Below are positions 25,934 to 47,486 of a DNA stretch of 64,000 nt, one piece after another. The notes beneath the pieces were generated by a model. That model was not told where the DNA came from, did not search any database, and saw nothing but the letters and a program-made list of their open reading frames with translations. This DNA comes from Chitinispirillum alkaliphilum (GTDB taxonomy: Bacteria; Fibrobacterota; Chitinivibrionia; Chitinivibrionales; Chitinispirillaceae). The stretch is taken from contig LDWW01000001.1 of NCBI GenBank assembly GCA_001045525.1, positions 1 to 64,000 of the forward strand. The letters are read 5' to 3'. Each line of letters starts with the position of its first letter. Position 1 is the stretch's first letter. The position numbers and the translations under genes were made by a program.

Positions 25934-28870
25934 TTACTCCAGCCAGTCATTGCCTTCACTGTTGATAATCCTTTCATCTCTGCCGCTGAGAAGATCCACC
26001 CAGCGGACCGTAGAGGTGCCATCCTCAGTTTTTCTGTTATATACAATCCGGGGGCGCTGATTGAAATATAGAAAACGGGGGTTGGTTTCGTGCCAGTTTT
26101 TCAGGCCGGTAGTGGTGATAAGTTTGCGAAACCGGTGCTCCTTGATATCGACCATGTTAAGATCAAGAAAATTGACACCGGAAGAAAAAATGATAGTCCT
26201 TGAATCATTCGTCCAGCAGAAATCCTCTACGTAGGAGTTTGTGGTAATCTGAACATGTTCTGAACTCTCTCTGTCATAAACCCAAAGATCCCTTCTTTGC
26301 CCTATGCTGAATCGATCCGAAATATAGGCTATGTAGCGGCCATCCGGGCTGAACGCGGGAGCAAAAAAATTCGCGTTAAAATCTGTCAGACGCCGGGGGG
26401 CAGTACCCGTGGTGTTGGTTAAAAATATCTGCTTGTGTCCATATTCATCCGAAATGTACACAAGCAGCTCTCCATCTGGTGAAAAACTGAATGAGTGTTG
26501 GGAGGAAGAGTCATTTTTAATGACCGGGACTGTTTCTTCACTAAGAGATGCAGGGGTTTTATATATACTGCCGACCTGTGAACCGCTGTCTGCTGCGGAG
26601 AAGTATATCCATTTACCATCACCTGAAAAACGGGCTTCCAGAACATTCTTGCCTTTCACAACTTCTCTTCTTCGGAAATTTTTCAGTTTCAACACCTCAA
26701 GTCTGACATTCATCAGTTCCCGGCAGCCTGTAAGGTATAGGGCTTTTCCTGTTTCGAAGGAAATTTCCGGGCTGAAACTGTTAAGTGAATAAGGAGTCAG
26801 AGGAAGTTCTGCCAATTTCTCCATTGTTTTCAGGAATGCCTGGGGTGCACCGTTGCGGTCTGTAACAAACGGAACGATTCCCCTGGCAGATTGCTGCGAA
26901 TGGATATCTATGCCAGCCTTTTCTAACTCAATAGTTGCGGTGACCTGGTTTTTCATTTGTTCCAGCACAGAGTCCGGCTCTATACTCCCAAGAACCGGGT
27001 ATAGTCGGTGTTCTGTTGATATCAGTTCTCTCTCGCGGTTAAACCTGAGAGAAAGAGCACCGACAAACCTGCCCTCGCTTCCAGCTGAAAGGATAATGGT
27101 AGATCCAACCCTCATAGGGGACTCAAATCGTTGGTTAAGGTTTGCGCAAATGATTATGTCAAGTTGAGGGGCGGCTCTGGCAATCTCTGTGATATTTTCC
27201 CAGGTATCGTGGATCACTGCAATTCTAAGGTCACTTCTAAGTGCCTGGGGGCTGCTCAGAAGTGCTGAAATGTGTTCTTTGACGCTCTCGATGTTATTGG
27301 AGTATGTTACAGTTTCCCCAAGGATATTCACAGCAAATATCTGGTAGCCATTTTTTTCTATGATTGATTGCTTCACCATCTCGGATGGAAGCGGGATATG
27401 TGAATTGGACAGAACAATATCAGATTTGCCTGTAAGGTCACGCTCAGAAAAGATCTCCCCGAGAAAAAGAAGTTCACCCCGGCCTGGTGCAATTATATCA
27501 AATCCCATATGGGTATAGTACTCTTTTGCGAGCTGGACTCGTAAGGGGTGGGTAGATTCATTTACTATGTTCCCCACATCGAGAGAGAACGCTGTCCGGT
27601 AAGCCGATCTGAGATTGTTTACAAGTGCACCTTGTCTTGATATCCCTCCAAGAGCATCCGCAGAAGGAGGCATGGGAACGAACCGTCCCTGTAAGTTTCC
27701 GGAGTAGATTAGCCCGATCTCAAGGTTTTCTCTTCGTAATGCCTCTGATCTCATTCTGCTTAAAAGTGTATGTGTATGCCAGTGATTTGGTTCTGCCCTT
27801 AGTGCTTTTGTGGCGTTATGTCTGGCAAGTCTGTTTCTGCCGTTATCGAAATGATACAGCGCAATCTTGTAATACTCGTCAGCAGTTCTGGGTTGGATTT
27901 CATCTAAATGAAGAAAAATATCTGCTGCCCAGACTAATCCGAAATCTCCAGACTGGAGTTTCCACCCGGCATCGAATCCATATTTTTCACCCCTGAAACC
28001 CACTCCGGCGCTTAGTCCGTTAATGCTTACCTTGTTTCCCGCGCTGTGTTCGTATCCCGAGCGCAGGAAAATGGAGGGACCTGCACGCAACTCAGAGCTG
28101 ATACCTAAAACAACGGGTTCATCGGCAGTTTTCTGTATGCCGGCTCCGATTTCAAGATCAAACATGGGAGAAGAATCCTCTTCACCTCTGAACGGGTGGA
28201 AGTTAATTGAAGCGCCTGTCTGGATAGGTAGTGGATGTGACCGGCCGCCACCGTATGACATTGGTGTTCCGGCATTAAGGAGGTAGATGCGTCCTGAAAG
28301 CATATCAAAAGGTTTCACCAGCAGATCTGCTCCTGCAGAAAATGCTCTTCCTGCATCGATATCGAGTCTGCTTTCCACATAGGAAGCATTAACTCCAAAG
28401 CTTAGTTTTCGGTTGAAAAAAGGCCTGGCAAAAGAGGCTCCAAGCACATATTCGAAGTATTTTGGATCGGAGGGGTTCTCGTCGATATCACGGGCATATT
28501 TAAATTGCCCGGAGCTCAGGAATCTGAAATAAAACCCGAATGTACCCACATCCAGGAGAGGGAATGTGGCACCGGCGTACTCTTTTCTAAGCCCCATGAG
28601 CCATTCAAGATGACTTATGGCAAATTGATTCTGAAAGGTAAGGGCGCTGTTTGCAGGAAAAAACGGAAGATCAGTTGCACACATTGATCCAGATGAGGAC
28701 ACAAGCCCTCGGGAGAGTTGAGAGGCAGATGAGGGAATAGAGAGAAACGCAGCAGTGGTGTTACCGCTGTTTTTACCATAAAGATCAGTCCACCACTCCT
28801 GTATGCTGCTTTGGGGGGAGGTGGGTATTAAAAACAGAAATGAAAACAAAAATAGAAAATATCTGGCCAA
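25934..28870 (-). CDS. Outer-membrane fusion: PorV/PorQ-like barrel, UshA-like domain, PD40 propeller
   Basis: This 978-residue protein has a signal peptide and three parts. Residues about 25-330 look like a PorV/PorQ-type beta-barrel (NTTAAFLSIPSSASQLSRG near the start, alternating aromatic strands). A short TPR-like helix pair (DEYYKIALYHFDNGRNRLAR) follows. Residues about 380-665 resemble a calcineurin/UshA-type phosphoesterase (LEIGLIYSGNLQGRF, ALGGISRQGALVNNLR, FSLDVGN). Residues about 720-970 are TolB-like PD40 propeller blades (FSPDGELLVYISDEYG, FSPDGRYIAYISD). The Asp/His metal set of the phosphoesterase is incomplete: the first motif reads YSGNLQGR where D-x-H would be expected. Role unknown, probably envelope-associated. 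Confidence 0.7.
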   Translation of the reverse strand: MARYFLFLFSFLFLIPTSPQSSIQEWWTDLYGKNSGNTTAAFLSIPSSASQLSRGLVSSSGSMCATDLPFFPANSALTFQNQFAISHLEWLMGLRKEYAGATFPLLDVGTFGFYFRFLSSGQFKYARDIDENPSDPKYFEYVLGASFARPFFNRKLSFGVNASYVESRLDIDAGRAFSAGADLLVKPFDMLSGRIYLLNAGTPMSYGGGRSHPLPIQTGASINFHPFRGEEDSSPMFDLEIGAGIQKTADEPVVLGISSELRAGPSIFLRSGYEHSAGNKVSINGLSAGVGFRGEKYGFDAGWKLQSGDFGLVWAADIFLHLDEIQPRTADEYYKIALYHFDNGRNRLARHNATKALRAEPNHWHTHTLLSRMRSEALRRENLEIGLIYSGNLQGRFVPMPPSADALGGISRQGALVNNLRSAYRTAFSLDVGNIVNESTHPLRVQLAKEYYTHMGFDIIAPGRGELLFLGEIFSERDLTGKSDIVLSNSHIPLPSEMVKQSIIEKNGYQIFAVNILGETVTYSNNIESVKEHISALLSSPQALRSDLRIAVIHDTWENITEIARAAPQLDIIICANLNQRFESPMRVGSTIILSAGSEGRFVGALSLRFNRERELISTEHRLYPVLGSIEPDSVLEQMKNQVTATIELEKAGIDIHSQQSARGIVPFVTDRNGAPQAFLKTMEKLAELPLTPYSLNSFSPEISFETGKALYLTGCRELMNVRLEVLKLKNFRRREVVKGKNVLEARFSGDGKWIYFSAADSGSQVGSIYKTPASLSEETVPVIKNDSSSQHSFSFSPDGELLVYISDEYGHKQIFLTNTTGTAPRRLTDFNANFFAPAFSPDGRYIAYISDRFSIGQRRDLWVYDRESSEHVQITTNSYVEDFCWTNDSRTIIFSSGVNFLDLNMVDIKEHRFRKLITTTGLKNWHETNPRFLYFNQRPRIVYNRKTEDGTSTVRWVDLLSGRDERIINSEGNDWLE

Positions 28871-35141: not shown

Positions 35142-35356
35142 ATGCTCCCAGTCCTTTGCTGTAAGTGATGGTACAGTTGATATTTAACTTCACCTATGCA
35201 TTTGCAATAGATGTGCCACAGGTTTTTAATCCAAATTGAGTTTTTTTTGCACGTCTGGCATGTGATTTGAAATAGATAATTCTCTGGCAGGACCAGAACA
35301 GCTTTGTTTACAAGCACACTCTGAACCGGATCAATTTAGACTAAAGCTGAGGGCAT

Positions 35357-38300
35357 ATGAAAAGAAAAAAAAGAATTACCACAAAGCGTTTATCCCTGAT
35401 GCTGCTGTTACTTTTTATACTTCTGTCAAAAAGCTACGGGGATTACTTCGGAAGAAACAAGGTACAGTATGATGATTTCGATTTCAAGGTACTTGAAAGC
35501 GAAAATATGCATATTCATTATTATCCCTCAAAGGAAAGGGCTGCACAGGATGCGGCGCGGATGCTGGAGCGGTGGAATGAGCGGTTGATGGGGATTTTCA
35601 ATATCGCTCTGCCCGATGAGCAGCCCGTAATACTCTACGCTACCCATGCACATTTTCAGCAGACCAATGCAGTTGGGCTCCTGCTACCCCAATCTACCGG
35701 CGGGGTAACTGAGGGTTATATGAACAGGGTAATTCTGCCCCTTACCGGTATTAACAGTTCTAATGATCATGTTTTGGGTCATGAGCTGGTGCATGCGTTT
35801 CAGTTTCAGCTGTTAAGAAGCAGTGAAGGTGGGCTGGCCAGAGGAGGGGAGATGCCGCTTTGGTTTATTGAGGGTATGGCTGAGTACCTCTCCTTAGGTT
35901 CCAAACACCCCCATACCGCTATGTGGATGAGAGATGCAGTATACAATGAGGATCTGCCTCATATAAATCAGCTTGGGAGATATCAGCGCTACTTCCCTTA
36001 CCGCTACGGTCATGCAGTTATGGCCTATATGGCAGGAATGGCAGGGGATGAATCTGTTGGGGATATATTCAAAGGGGTACTCAGATACGGTTGGAGGGGA
36101 GGATTCAGAAGAACTCTGGGAGTTCCTCTCGACACAATCTCCGATCAGTGGAGAAGAGTAACACAAAAACATTTCTCTTCAACCCTCAATGGCAAAACCG
36201 CTCCTGATGAGGTGGGAGAAGAGGTGATTCCCTGGAACCAGATAAACCTCTCGCCCATAATCAGTCCCGATGGTAGGAAAATGGCATTTATGTCTCTGGG
36301 CGAACTCTTCTCAATCGATCTGTTTCTTGCAGATGTTACAACTGGTGAAATAGAAAGAAAACTCCTCAGCTCTCAGGGCGATGACCATTTCGATGCCCTG
36401 AGATTCTTCAACTCCTCAGGGGCCTGGTCACCGGATGGAAAACAGATAGCGGTCGTTGTGTTCAGAGAGGGAAGAAACGATGTGGCTTTCCTTGATGTGG
36501 AGAATGCACAAATTGATAGCATGGTAAAAATCGAAGGTGTGGAGGAGATAACTGATCTTGCCTGGTCACCGGACGGAAACTATTTGGCCATAGCGGGAAC
36601 AAAGGGAGCCATTTCTAATCTCTACCTCTATGAGATCGAAAATGGCAGGGTAGAGCAGCTCACAGATGACAGATATTCGGTACTGCAGCCTGCCTGGTCT
36701 CCCGATGGAGAAAAACTGCTGTTTTCTACTGACCGGGCTTCCGGCACCGATTTCCAGTTCCTCAGATTCGCTCCAAACCGAATCGCTATCTATGATATGA
36801 ATAATACCGGTATCACTACTATGGCTGTCGCTCCATGGGCAAAGCATATAAATCCCCACTTCTCCCCGGATGGGAAAAATATCTACACAGTTGCAAACCC
36901 CGATGGGGTAAGTGATATCTACAGAATAAACCTTGAGAATGGTGAAGTCTATCGGGTAACCTCTGTAACCTCGGGAATAACAGGACTGACAGATCTGTCC
37001 CCTGCAATGTCCCTTTCAACAGATTCCGGAAATATGGTGTTTTCCGTTTTCTCAAGGGGGGGTTACAAAATCAGAAAACTCTCAGGTCAGGATCTCTATG
37101 GAGAACCATTCACTCCTGACCGGGATGAATACACGTTCAACGTTTCTCTCCCGCCTCTGTCAAGACGCGATTCGATTGTCAACGATTACCTTAACGCTTC
37201 TTCGGTCGGACTCCCCCAGACAGAATCCTTTTCAATCGATAATTACTCCCCCAGGCTTCGTCTGCTCTATGTCGGACAGCTCTTCGCAGGCGTCGCAGCG
37301 GACCGGTATGGTGTTGGTATCGGAGGGGGGGCATCTTTCCTTTTCAGTGATCTCCTTGGAGACCATCTCCTTGGGTTGGGGGTTCAGGTTAGCGGAAGAA
37401 TATCCGATATCGGTGCTGAGGCTTTTTACATAAACAGGGAAAACAGGCTGAACTGGGGGGTGAGCTTAAGTCGCATACCCTACATATCCACAACCCTTAC
37501 AGGACGAAGGGATCAGGATAATGATGAAATCTCCTATAGCTTTATCACCAGAAGGATGTTTGAAAACAGGATAAGGGGGTTTGTGGACTACCCGTTAACT
37601 GAAAACAGACGCTTTGAACTCAGCAGCGGTCTTACCCGCTATGGTTACGACTACACTGAAGAACGGTTAAGAGTCAGGGATGGCAGAGTGCAGGATCAGA
37701 CAGAAGTTGATATCGAGGATCCCTCCTCAGTCAGTTTAATACATGGTTCGGTTGCGTATGTGGGAGACTTTTCCTATTTCGGGTTTACCTCTCCAATCAC
37801 CGGACGCCGTTTTCGTCTTGAACTTGAACCTACTACAGGCTCACTCAATTTCCTTTCCGCTTTAATTGATTACAGACATTACATGTTTCTTAACCCTGTT
37901 ACACTGGCGTACAGGTTTTTCCATCTCGGAAGATATTTCGGAGATTCTGAGTCTGACAGGCTTTCACCCTATTTTCTCGGTCTTGAAACGTGGGTAAGAG
38001 GATACAGCCCATTTACCTATGATATGGCTTTTTATCGTGGGGATTATGATTTTTCTGATTACCCGGAGTTTGATCGTCTTGTGGGTTCAAGAGTGGGAAT
38101 TGTAAATATGGAACTGAGATTTCCCCTGTTGGGAACTGATGATTTTGGTTTGATCTCCTTTCCTGCTATTCCTCTTGAAATCGCACTTTTCCTGGATGGT
38201 GGTGTGGCGTGGACAAGTGAAAGTCTGCCAAGGTTACGCTGGGATAGAGAAAATACAGAGGATAGAGTTCCCGTTTTCAGTACCGGAGTGGCTGGGAGAT

Positions 38301-38404
38301 TCAACATCCTGGGGGTTTTGGTGCTGCAAATCTACTATGCATACCCCTTTCAGAGGCCCGATTACAGAGGACACTGGGGATTTATTTTTGCCCCGGGATG
38401 GTAA
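35357..38404 (+). CDS. Gluzincin peptidase - PD40 propeller - outer-membrane barrel fusion
   Basis: This 1,015-residue protein has a signal peptide (about 1-28). A zinc metallopeptidase-like domain carries HELVH (142-146) and a third-ligand candidate Glu172 in FIEGMAEYLS. A TolB-like propeller spans about 285-600 with repeated SPDGK/SPDGE blades (AWSPDGKQIAVV, AWSPDGNYLAIAG, AWSPDGEKLLFS). The rest, about 640-1015, is a BamA/Omp85-like beta-barrel end (SPFTYDMAFYRGDYDF, then VGSRVGIVNMELRFPLLG, final residue Trp). Such fusions are known in FCB-group genomes with unknown role. GAGG precedes ATG 35357. Confidence 0.85.
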   Translation: MKRKKRITTKRLSLMLLLLFILLSKSYGDYFGRNKVQYDDFDFKVLESENMHIHYYPSKERAAQDAARMLERWNERLMGIFNIALPDEQPVILYATHAHFQQTNAVGLLLPQSTGGVTEGYMNRVILPLTGINSSNDHVLGHELVHAFQFQLLRSSEGGLARGGEMPLWFIEGMAEYLSLGSKHPHTAMWMRDAVYNEDLPHINQLGRYQRYFPYRYGHAVMAYMAGMAGDESVGDIFKGVLRYGWRGGFRRTLGVPLDTISDQWRRVTQKHFSSTLNGKTAPDEVGEEVIPWNQINLSPIISPDGRKMAFMSLGELFSIDLFLADVTTGEIERKLLSSQGDDHFDALRFFNSSGAWSPDGKQIAVVVFREGRNDVAFLDVENAQIDSMVKIEGVEEITDLAWSPDGNYLAIAGTKGAISNLYLYEIENGRVEQLTDDRYSVLQPAWSPDGEKLLFSTDRASGTDFQFLRFAPNRIAIYDMNNTGITTMAVAPWAKHINPHFSPDGKNIYTVANPDGVSDIYRINLENGEVYRVTSVTSGITGLTDLSPAMSLSTDSGNMVFSVFSRGGYKIRKLSGQDLYGEPFTPDRDEYTFNVSLPPLSRRDSIVNDYLNASSVGLPQTESFSIDNYSPRLRLLYVGQLFAGVAADRYGVGIGGGASFLFSDLLGDHLLGLGVQVSGRISDIGAEAFYINRENRLNWGVSLSRIPYISTTLTGRRDQDNDEISYSFITRRMFENRIRGFVDYPLTENRRFELSSGLTRYGYDYTEERLRVRDGRVQDQTEVDIEDPSSVSLIHGSVAYVGDFSYFGFTSPITGRRFRLELEPTTGSLNFLSALIDYRHYMFLNPVTLAYRFFHLGRYFGDSESDRLSPYFLGLETWVRGYSPFTYDMAFYRGDYDFSDYPEFDRLVGSRVGIVNMELRFPLLGTDDFGLISFPAIPLEIALFLDGGVAWTSESLPRLRWDRENTEDRVPVFSTGVAGRFNILGVLVLQIYYAYPFQRPDYRGHWGFIFAPGW

Positions 38405-42391: not shown

Positions 42392-42625
42392 TCTCTTGCC
42401 CTTAAAGCTGGGTGGCAGGGATTACCTAATTGAGAATATATAAAATGGGAAAGTATGAAGTGGAAGGGGATTGTATTTGAACTGTTTTTTTGGGCATTCT
42501 GAAACTTAACACACTCAAACATAAGTATAAGAACACTCCTAAATGTCTCGAATCTTATTTGTTGTGTTTACATATACAATTTTTTATATTCACATTCAAA
42601 TCAAATCCGGAAAGGACGGAGTTTT

Positions 42626-43913
42626 ATGCTTGTCAAAATTGTTGCATTTGTTCTTTTATCGCTTTCTTTTCCAGCGCAGGCTTTATTATATCAAGCTGGT
42701 ATAACATCGGAGTTTCCTTCAGGTGCACGTTCATTGGGTATGGGAGAGGTTGGTGTTGCACTGGCCAATGATGAGAACGTCTCATTTTATAATCCAGCGG
42801 GTCTTGGGTTCTTCAACCAAAGATGGCAGGGAGGAGCAGTTTGTAGGTTCTCTGAAATACTTTTGCCAGTTCTCCGCATTCCTGGCCTGTGGCATAAAAA
42901 ATTCGCTGCCGTTTATCAGCCTGCAGGATTAAGAGCTGGGGGGTTCGCTATTGATCTTAATATCTTAAATTTTGGAAGAACAGAAGACATTTCGGGAATA
43001 AGAATTAATGATAATTATGAATATGTAATTAGTGCAGGATGGGGTTACCAGTTCCTAAAGACGGAAAGGGCAAATCACAGTGCTGGTATAAATATGAAAT
43101 TTATTGAATCAAACCTTTTCGAATATTTTCCTCAAATGGAAGCAATGTCTGACTCCTTAGAATATTACTATGTTAAGGAAGGTGATTACTATGTTAGTTA
43201 TTCAGATAGGGGGATGTATTTTTACGAACGGGATAAAGGCGGGTATTACAGGACACATTATGAACCTGCTAATTTTCAGGGAAAAACATTTGCATTTGAT
43301 TTAGGATATTTGGTAAACTGGAACAGGTCCATGCGCTTTGGGGTAACACTGGTAAATATTGGTGCACCAATAAAATATTCTTTGGAGTTACTTGAAGATT
43401 CTCTTGTAGTCGTTTGAATCTGAAAACGTTTTAAGGCCTTTACCATTTGGTATAAATCTGGCACTTGGATATCATGATGAATTTGACATCAATCAACTTC
43501 GTGCTTTTGAGGTAAGTGCAGAAATCCGATTGCACCGTGATTTTGCAAGAAGATTCTATGATGGTAAGCGCCCGGATCCTTTTTACCGGGCTTTCTACAA
43601 AAGCTTTGATACTACATTCAATGCGTTCATGGATCAGTTTCAAGTAAATATGGGCGCTGAAGCGGTTTTCTTGAATACCGGAATCTTGAGATCTGGAGTG
43701 TTGTATGATTATTCCGGCCAGCGGCATGAATTGCAGTCTGGCCTGGGGCTTAGAATGTTTAACCATTTCCAAATTGACCACTACATAATATACGCTCCAG
43801 AAGGTTTTTGGAGAAATCATGGAAAAAGACATAAACAATGGGGGATTAGTTTCACTTTTTACAACATGCTCAACTGGAGTGAACAGGATAAACGCTGGTG
43901 GAGAAGAGGCTGA
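42626..43913 (+). pseudogene. PorV/PorQ-like outer-membrane protein gene with a frameshift
   Basis: The first frame (42626-43417) encodes a signal peptide, then FPSGARSLGMGEVGVALAND and FYNPAGLG, the hallmark start of PorV/PorQ barrels. It ends at a TGA right after a strand ending LELLEDSLVVV. The next frame (+1) carries on without a break from about 43410 (SFESENVLRPLPFGINLALGYHD) to the stop at 43913, giving a normal barrel of about 428 residues in all. The shift occurs at GTT-TGA-A. Either a one-base insertion (mutation or sequencing error) or a programmed +1 shift explains it. AGGACGGAG precedes ATG 42626. Confidence 0.8.
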
Positions 43914-46544: not shown

Positions 46545-47486
46545 ATGTGTAAGTTAATGATTGTACTGTTGATTTCGGGAGTTTTATTTGGTGGTTACGG
46601 AAGAGCTGACTCGGTCTGTTATATGCAGCCGGTAGGTTGGAAAATTTTCTCTTCTGAGACACCAGTAAGCAATTTTACTGTTCAGGGAAATCTGCTCTGG
46701 TATTCAAATGAGGAAGGAGTTTTCTCGTTTGATAAAAGACGTAACACGCTTCAGAGTTACTCAGATTTGGGTGGTATTTCAGCCTCTGATGTCAGCAGTA
46801 TGACCGTTGATGCCGCAGGACGGGTTTGGATTGGAGGACCTGAAGGGGTTGCGGTCAGAGATGGTGGTTTTAAAGTTTACAACGAACAGAATGGGCTTCC
46901 TGCCAGCAACGTGCTCTCTCTTGTGGCACAGACCTCAGGTCCTGTTTGGGTGGGTACAGAAGACGGATTGGCTCAGTACAATAACGGAAACTGGGTGATA
47001 TTCAAAACTGAGGACGGCTTGGCCAGTAACAGAATTCAGGCTCTGGCAGTTGATAGCAGTGGCTCTGTTTGGGCTGGAACAAATCGTGGAATATCTGTTT
47101 ATAACGGAAGTAACTGGACCACTTACGATATGAATAACGGCTTATCATGGAATGATACCAGAGCCCTTGCAGTAGACAGCAGGGAAGGCACGGTCTGGGC
47201 TGCTGTCGGCGAGAGAGATATTAACTGTTTCAATGGTGAAAACTGGCGCATTTTTATGCAGATTGAACCTGATATTACTTCGATAATGGCAGACACACAC
47301 AGCAGAATTTGGTTTGGCACCAAAAACGGGTTATTGCGATTCAATGGTCAGGAGTGGATTGATGACTCGGAGAGGTTTGGTTTCCAGGTAGAGCAGGTTT
47401 CAGGGATGTATAGGGATAGTCAGGGGAATCTGTGGTATGGAATCGAGTCGGGAGTGCTGAAATTCGATAATCCTTACCCTTTTTAA
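46545..47486 (+). CDS. Secreted beta-propeller of the two-component-regulator type
   Basis: The 313-residue protein has a signal peptide ending near GRADS and about six repeats of a propeller blade (GRVWIGGPEGVAV, GPVWVGTEDGLAQY, GSVWAGTNRGISVY, SRIWFGTKNGLLRF, GNLWYGIESGVLKF). This blade type normally forms the sensor half of hybrid two-component systems in Bacteroidota. Here it stands alone, with no kinase or membrane helix, so it may bind a glycan or another envelope protein in the periplasm. GGGAGGGA precedes ATG 46545. Confidence 0.85.
   Translation: MCKLMIVLLISGVLFGGYGRADSVCYMQPVGWKIFSSETPVSNFTVQGNLLWYSNEEGVFSFDKRRNTLQSYSDLGGISASDVSSMTVDAAGRVWIGGPEGVAVRDGGFKVYNEQNGLPASNVLSLVAQTSGPVWVGTEDGLAQYNNGNWVIFKTEDGLASNRIQALAVDSSGSVWAGTNRGISVYNGSNWTTYDMNNGLSWNDTRALAVDSREGTVWAAVGERDINCFNGENWRIFMQIEPDITSIMADTHSRIWFGTKNGLLRFNGQEWIDDSERFGFQVEQVSGMYRDSQGNLWYGIESGVLKFDNPYPF

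Follow-up and report, generated by a model that had tools for sequence, protein, structure and literature searches.

We analysed a window of 64,000 nucleotides at the start of contig LDWW01000001.1 of Chitinispirillum alkaliphilum, in which one gene on the minus strand (25934..28870) encodes a protein of 978 amino acids in a single open frame. The frame begins with TTG, and the upstream sequence read carries an in-frame stop two codons 5' of this start. A signal-peptide-like N-terminus, judged by eye (~residues 1-21, 28808..28870), is followed on the same strand by a PorV/PorQ-type outer-membrane barrel (~residues 25-325, 27896..28798), a TPR-like helical hairpin (~residues 330-370, 27761..27883), an UshA-like metallophosphatase domain without metal ligands (~residues 372-650, 26921..27757), and a TolB-like PD40 beta-propeller (~residues 665-978, 25937..26878) in which about seven blade-like repeats can be made out by eye. 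The frame lies exactly where the original prediction put it; the order of barrel, UshA-like domain and propeller given there is confirmed by NCBIfam and Pfam matches, and the same order is kept phylum-wide. The G+C content of the window is 44.3%, and that of the strain ACht6-1 genome is given as 42.9% (PMC4814513). Searches of the organism's own genome covered 160 contigs and 4,434,773 bases.

The original prediction staked its reading on a barrel within residues 25-330, and domain prediction places one there: the NCBIfam model NF033709 (PorV_fam) matches residues 38-306 of the window protein at E 6.4e-21 and 75.3 bits, below the curated cut-off of 90 bits. The scan took in nine of the ten distant homologues, every one of which exceeds this cut-off (95.6-116.2 bits). 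For eight of the nine the match extends almost to the end of the profile (positions 323-325 of 326); L128 instead has a best stretch that stops at profile position 196, plus a second one. Within the order, 18 of 23 aligned members match PorV_fam at E 0.001, and two of the five that do not match have no barrel. A beta-strand pattern for residues 25-325 is also borne out by the alternation of hydrophobicity over residues 100-325 in 33 aligned homologues (z = 4.7 against 500 shuffles), with the UshA-like part (z = -0.36) and the propeller (z = -0.74) of the same homologues serving as controls. By these profile matches the barrel is related to the PorV/PorQ family, of which PorQ is the nearest named member. 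In all nine distant homologues the PorQ model scores higher than the PorV model (55-84 bits versus at most 38 bits), and neither these proteins nor the window protein, at 28.2 bits, reach the 220-bit cut-off of the PorQ equivalog NF033711. The window protein differs from the family in having about 650 more residues after the last strand.

It differs further at the start of the barrel, where an NPA motif is a feature of the FadL-type hatch. All ten distant rows of the alignment carry NPA (or, in one, NPS), whereas none of the 21 barrel-bearing rows of the window's order does, and the barrel of this order may therefore have lost PorV/PorQ-like action. The aligned rows thus describe a barrel that is changed in the window's order, and yet no other part of the chain is better conserved within that order: the median identity to the window protein is 44% for the barrel, 34% for the UshA-like domain and 36% for the propeller. 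AlphaFold2 models built from a two-row alignment are too poor for use (mean pLDDT 37.7 for the barrel part and 44.6 for the rest). Foldseek with the low-confidence barrel model (pLDDT 37.7) ranks porins at the top at E 0.018 or worse; the second low-confidence model retrieves S9 peptidase and TolB propellers and adds little to the sequence evidence. The helices of the TPR-like hairpin are modelled at a block pLDDT of ~74-80, and Pfam TPR gives a weak match at residues 330-366.

The domain that follows the hairpin is akin by profile to the N-terminal domain of UshA and the 5'-nucleotidases. Searching with the profile of this part gives E 4.5e-17 for the nucleotidase 3ivd and E 0.01 or better for 30 other chains. 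In the window protein, NF041198 (UshA_like_PCGU) matches residues 372-619 at E 3.1e-13, far below its cut-off (49 of 275 bits), and the same model is matched by 22 of the 23 order members and by 9/9 distant homologues. In contrast to the UshA-like (seleno)protein families NF041198 and NF049981, the window domain is fused between a barrel and a propeller and, by eye, lacks the Cys/Sec motif at the PCGU position. Other UshA-like genes came to light in these searches. One in the organism's own genome (L091; G000:C12:75750-76502), of 791 aa and with homologues in relatives, combines an UshA-like domain containing a C-x-C motif with an extended C-terminal region, which appears thioredoxin-like by eye; another (L098; G041:C96:69691-70494) has an in-frame TGA, which fits the selenoprotein form of the family.

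We counted the metal-ligand columns in 33 rows aligned to 3ivd, 23 from the order and ten from distant homologues, with the ligands named D-x-H, GD, NH and GH-x-H/Q after the E. coli UshA pattern. In place of the first metal-binding Asp, 32 rows have Asn and one has Gly. Neither the His of D-x-H nor the first His of GH-x-H is present in any row, and two rows retain the Asn of NH. The Asp of the GD motif is replaced by Asn in 26 rows, Glu in two and Arg in one; the four rows that retain it are distant homologues. One ligand-equivalent His is kept in 21/33 rows and one Gln-equivalent in 18/33; the GG..R motif is intact throughout the 33 rows. Judged by the UshA/5'-nucleotidase ligands, the dinuclear metal site is absent in 33/33 rows, so the incomplete metal motifs first noticed in this one protein are a property of the whole family. 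Because the fold is kept across the phylum without a metal site, the aligned sequences identify the domain as a conserved pseudoenzyme, one that would have lost catalysis and most likely serves as a binding surface.

The C-terminal propeller is matched by Pfam PD40 in three stretches (E 3.8e-18) and by the TolB propeller model TIGR02800 at residues 698-921 (E 3.2e-21), and all 23 order members match TIGR02800. This likeness to TolB is confined to the propeller, for the N-terminal domain of TolB is unmatched in the window protein: the best stretch covers profile positions 193-408 only, at 75.7 bits versus a cut-off of 343, and the genome has a separate TolB-like gene.

BLAST of fetched loci identified relatives of the window protein in 29 of 60 related genomes. 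Of those relatives, 21 span barrel to propeller and six are shortened, mostly at contig ends; those of two genomes in one genus (G004 and G013) are barrel-less and start with a signal-peptide-like stretch of their own. A query of residues 280-480, which covers the junction, found matches in 42 of 167 phylum genomes at E 1e-6, and 39 of these matches start in the barrel. Two more are of the barrel-less G004/G013 type, and that of G157 starts in the TPR stretch of a protein whose profile match covers the full length. The fusion also occurs in four other families, in ten genomes (G041; G063 and G151; G157; G158-G163), with barrel, UshA-like domain and propeller in one frame by whole-chain profile. 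Genome searches found no fusion gene in any of the five f7 genomes or in either g7 genome, and the Fibrobacter-like (g24) genomes among the 60 searched gave propeller matches only, with no fusion. A scan beyond the phylum with narrow patterns returned one full-length relative and five partial matches in the propeller region. Since the domain order is conserved across the phylum, recurring throughout the order and in ten genomes spread over four further families, the three-part fusion is, on this comparative evidence, not a product of chance. The portions consulted of the literature on PorV, PorQ and PorZ, on the Fibrobacterota type IX secretion system (T9SS) and on UshA-like selenoproteins contain no account of such a fusion, and the protein adds an extra-domain variant to the known PorV/PorQ-type barrels.

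Gene neighbourhoods were compared in the window and 28 further regions, of which 24 show the downstream neighbour and five stop at a contig edge. An Smr gene directly adjoins the fusion gene in 11/24 loci and lies behind one small open reading frame in a twelfth; nine loci have other downstream genes. A GT4 gene adjoins in only three (the window, G001 and G006), and in two of these, the window and G006, it is itself followed directly by the Smr gene, which suggests that GT4 was inserted late between genes that had long been neighbours. In the window the GT4 gene begins 12 bp downstream of the fusion gene, and the shared transcript proposed at the outset is therefore likely, although it carries no conserved meaning. 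The link to surface glycans that had been drawn from it is unsupported by the synteny, and we rejected it. No known T9SS genes occur among the nameable neighbours in the 28 regions and ten distant regions (L076 being in both sets), in a survey in which most genes were compared with each other rather than scanned against family libraries. In G157, lpxK and a DUF2225 gene are among the neighbours of the homologue; a propeller-like neighbour, PorZ-like by eye, was dropped because it matched neither NCBIfam nor Pfam.

The organism does possess the T9SS translocon. SprA scores 446.9 bits in a search of its own genome with neighbours, against a cut-off of 200, and is above cut-off in 57/60 genomes searched. 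The same genome yields 13 PorV_fam matches in about ten genes. A 341-aa member is nearest PorQ (106 bits), and the barrel of a 794-aa member (L043; G000:C23:29598-31979) is nearest T9SS PorV (132 bits, cut-off 250). L043 has a Reg_prop propeller with a weak PorZ match (35 bits) inserted near the start of its barrel, and at E 1e-40 a homologue of it turns up in 48 of 50 genomes, Fibrobacter-like genomes included; by these matches, it may be the PorV of the phylum, fused to a PorZ-like part. Because the usual PorV and PorQ seats thus seem taken, the window protein would be an extra member of the family. In a further protein (L050; G000:C2:155244) of at least 710 aa, TPRs with a weak match to PorW/SprE come after a PorV-family barrel, which makes C-terminal extension of these barrels a recurrent feature of this genome. 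The premise that accessory barrels of this type are normally single-domain is accordingly weak here, with both L043 and L050 carrying large soluble parts.

Three other genes on the plus strand of the window touch on these families. A PorV-family barrel at 42602-43900 is split over two open frames (304 aa and 167 aa) by a frameshift between ~43381 and 43452; since the source genome is described as pyrosequenced (PMC4814513), an assembly error is possible. A 1017-aa protein at ~35351-38401 (L007:433-3483) has a PD40 propeller and, by eye, a peptidase-like N-terminus (HELVH) and a barrel-like C-terminus. At 46683-47120, a 319-aa frame gives a weak PorZ match (27 bits).

Even-stranded barrels of this type have both ends facing the periplasm. 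Since the extra domains are placed after the last barrel strand, the TPR-like, UshA-like and propeller parts should be periplasmic rather than exposed at the surface, as judged from outer-membrane protein topology. Our modest preference is for a periplasmic scaffold that is anchored in the outer membrane, has no catalysis and lies at the periphery of the T9SS. The PorQ-like, FadL-type barrel would sit in the outer membrane, and the chain would exit its last strand on the periplasmic side, bearing the TPR-like hairpin, the dead UshA-like domain and the TolB-like propeller. The last two would then offer surfaces for binding and keep partners in the periplasm or on the peptidoglycan beside the barrel. 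Such an arrangement would work like the separate PorP and PorE of type IX secretion, in which a barrel is described as binding a periplasmic partner that combines TPR and propeller and extends to the peptidoglycan (PMC9143113, PMC7192894). The likeness lies in an outer-membrane barrel combined with a periplasmic TPR and propeller (PMC9143113), whereas the window protein is one chain, uses another barrel family, adds the dead UshA-like domain and lacks the CRD of PorE. The OmpA-like peptidoglycan-binding end, also a PorE feature, was not found in the window protein with Pfam or NCBIfam.

The scaffold reading is supported by the retention of the architecture in the order and four other families, and by the loss of the ligands in every row that keeps GG..R. 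The barrel-less versions in G004 and G013 favour it as well, for in these the barrel is dispensable for the C-terminal part. So do the PorV_fam and PorQ scores of the nine distant homologues, the widespread SprA and the precedent of PorP with PorE. It is weakened by the lack of T9SS neighbours, by the absence of the gene from many T9SS-bearing relatives (f7, g7 and the listed g24 genomes), and by other proteins of the same genome that resemble genuine PorV and PorQ more closely. The missing OmpA-like end, the want of a usable structure model and the loss of NPA throughout the order weaken it further. A specific T9SS role for the window protein is plausible but conjectural.

Among other explanations, the barrel might pass a hydrophobic ligand, with the dead UshA-like domain binding it as a periplasmic acceptor. 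The barrel belongs to the FadL-type family, whose proteins are described as 14-stranded with an N-terminal tail that threads the pore (PMC12611786). The hatch motif kept by the ten distant homologues and the glycine motif retained in the dead domain would also suit an importer, but we consider one unlikely given the loss of NPA in 21/21 rows, the two genomes that dispense with the barrel, and the lack of transport genes among the conserved neighbours. The TolB-like propeller could instead point to outer-membrane assembly or a Tol-Pal-like link outside the T9SS, and a FadL-type protein, BamG, is reported as a BAM subunit in Flavobacterium (PMC12611786). Against this quite unlikely role, the genome has the separate TolB-like propeller gene (420 aa) and also a BamG-like protein, and the BamG model is unmatched by the window protein. 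The original prediction offered an outer-membrane scaffold or sensor, with a hinted link to surface glycans. Of these the scaffold is our best guess, whereas an outward-facing sensor is disfavoured by the domains that follow the last strand. In Porphyromonas, PorQ is reported to keep PorZ, a propeller protein, at the surface (PMC5562754), and this precedent and the nearby GT4 gene would fit such a placement, but the expected periplasmic location and the rarity of that neighbour make it distinctly improbable. An active hydrolase with an unusual metal site is highly improbable, for the partly kept His and Gln equivalents and the GD-motif Asp of four distant rows are set against the first Asp and two His ligands lost in every row and an Asn surviving in two.

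The T9SS has been studied almost exclusively in Bacteroidota, yet Fibrobacterota, among them members that break down chitin and cellulose, carry it too. It is conceivable, if doubtful, that Fibrobacterota fused T9SS parts that are separate in Bacteroidota, with the window protein combining a barrel, a TPR-propeller anchor and a dead-phosphatase docking module, and a second PorV-family barrel containing an internal PorZ-like propeller. The protein would offer a clear example of how a metallophosphatase fold can be turned into a module for binding, and a phylum-wide barrel with a covalent periplasmic arm would provide a ready handle for fishing out outer-membrane partners.
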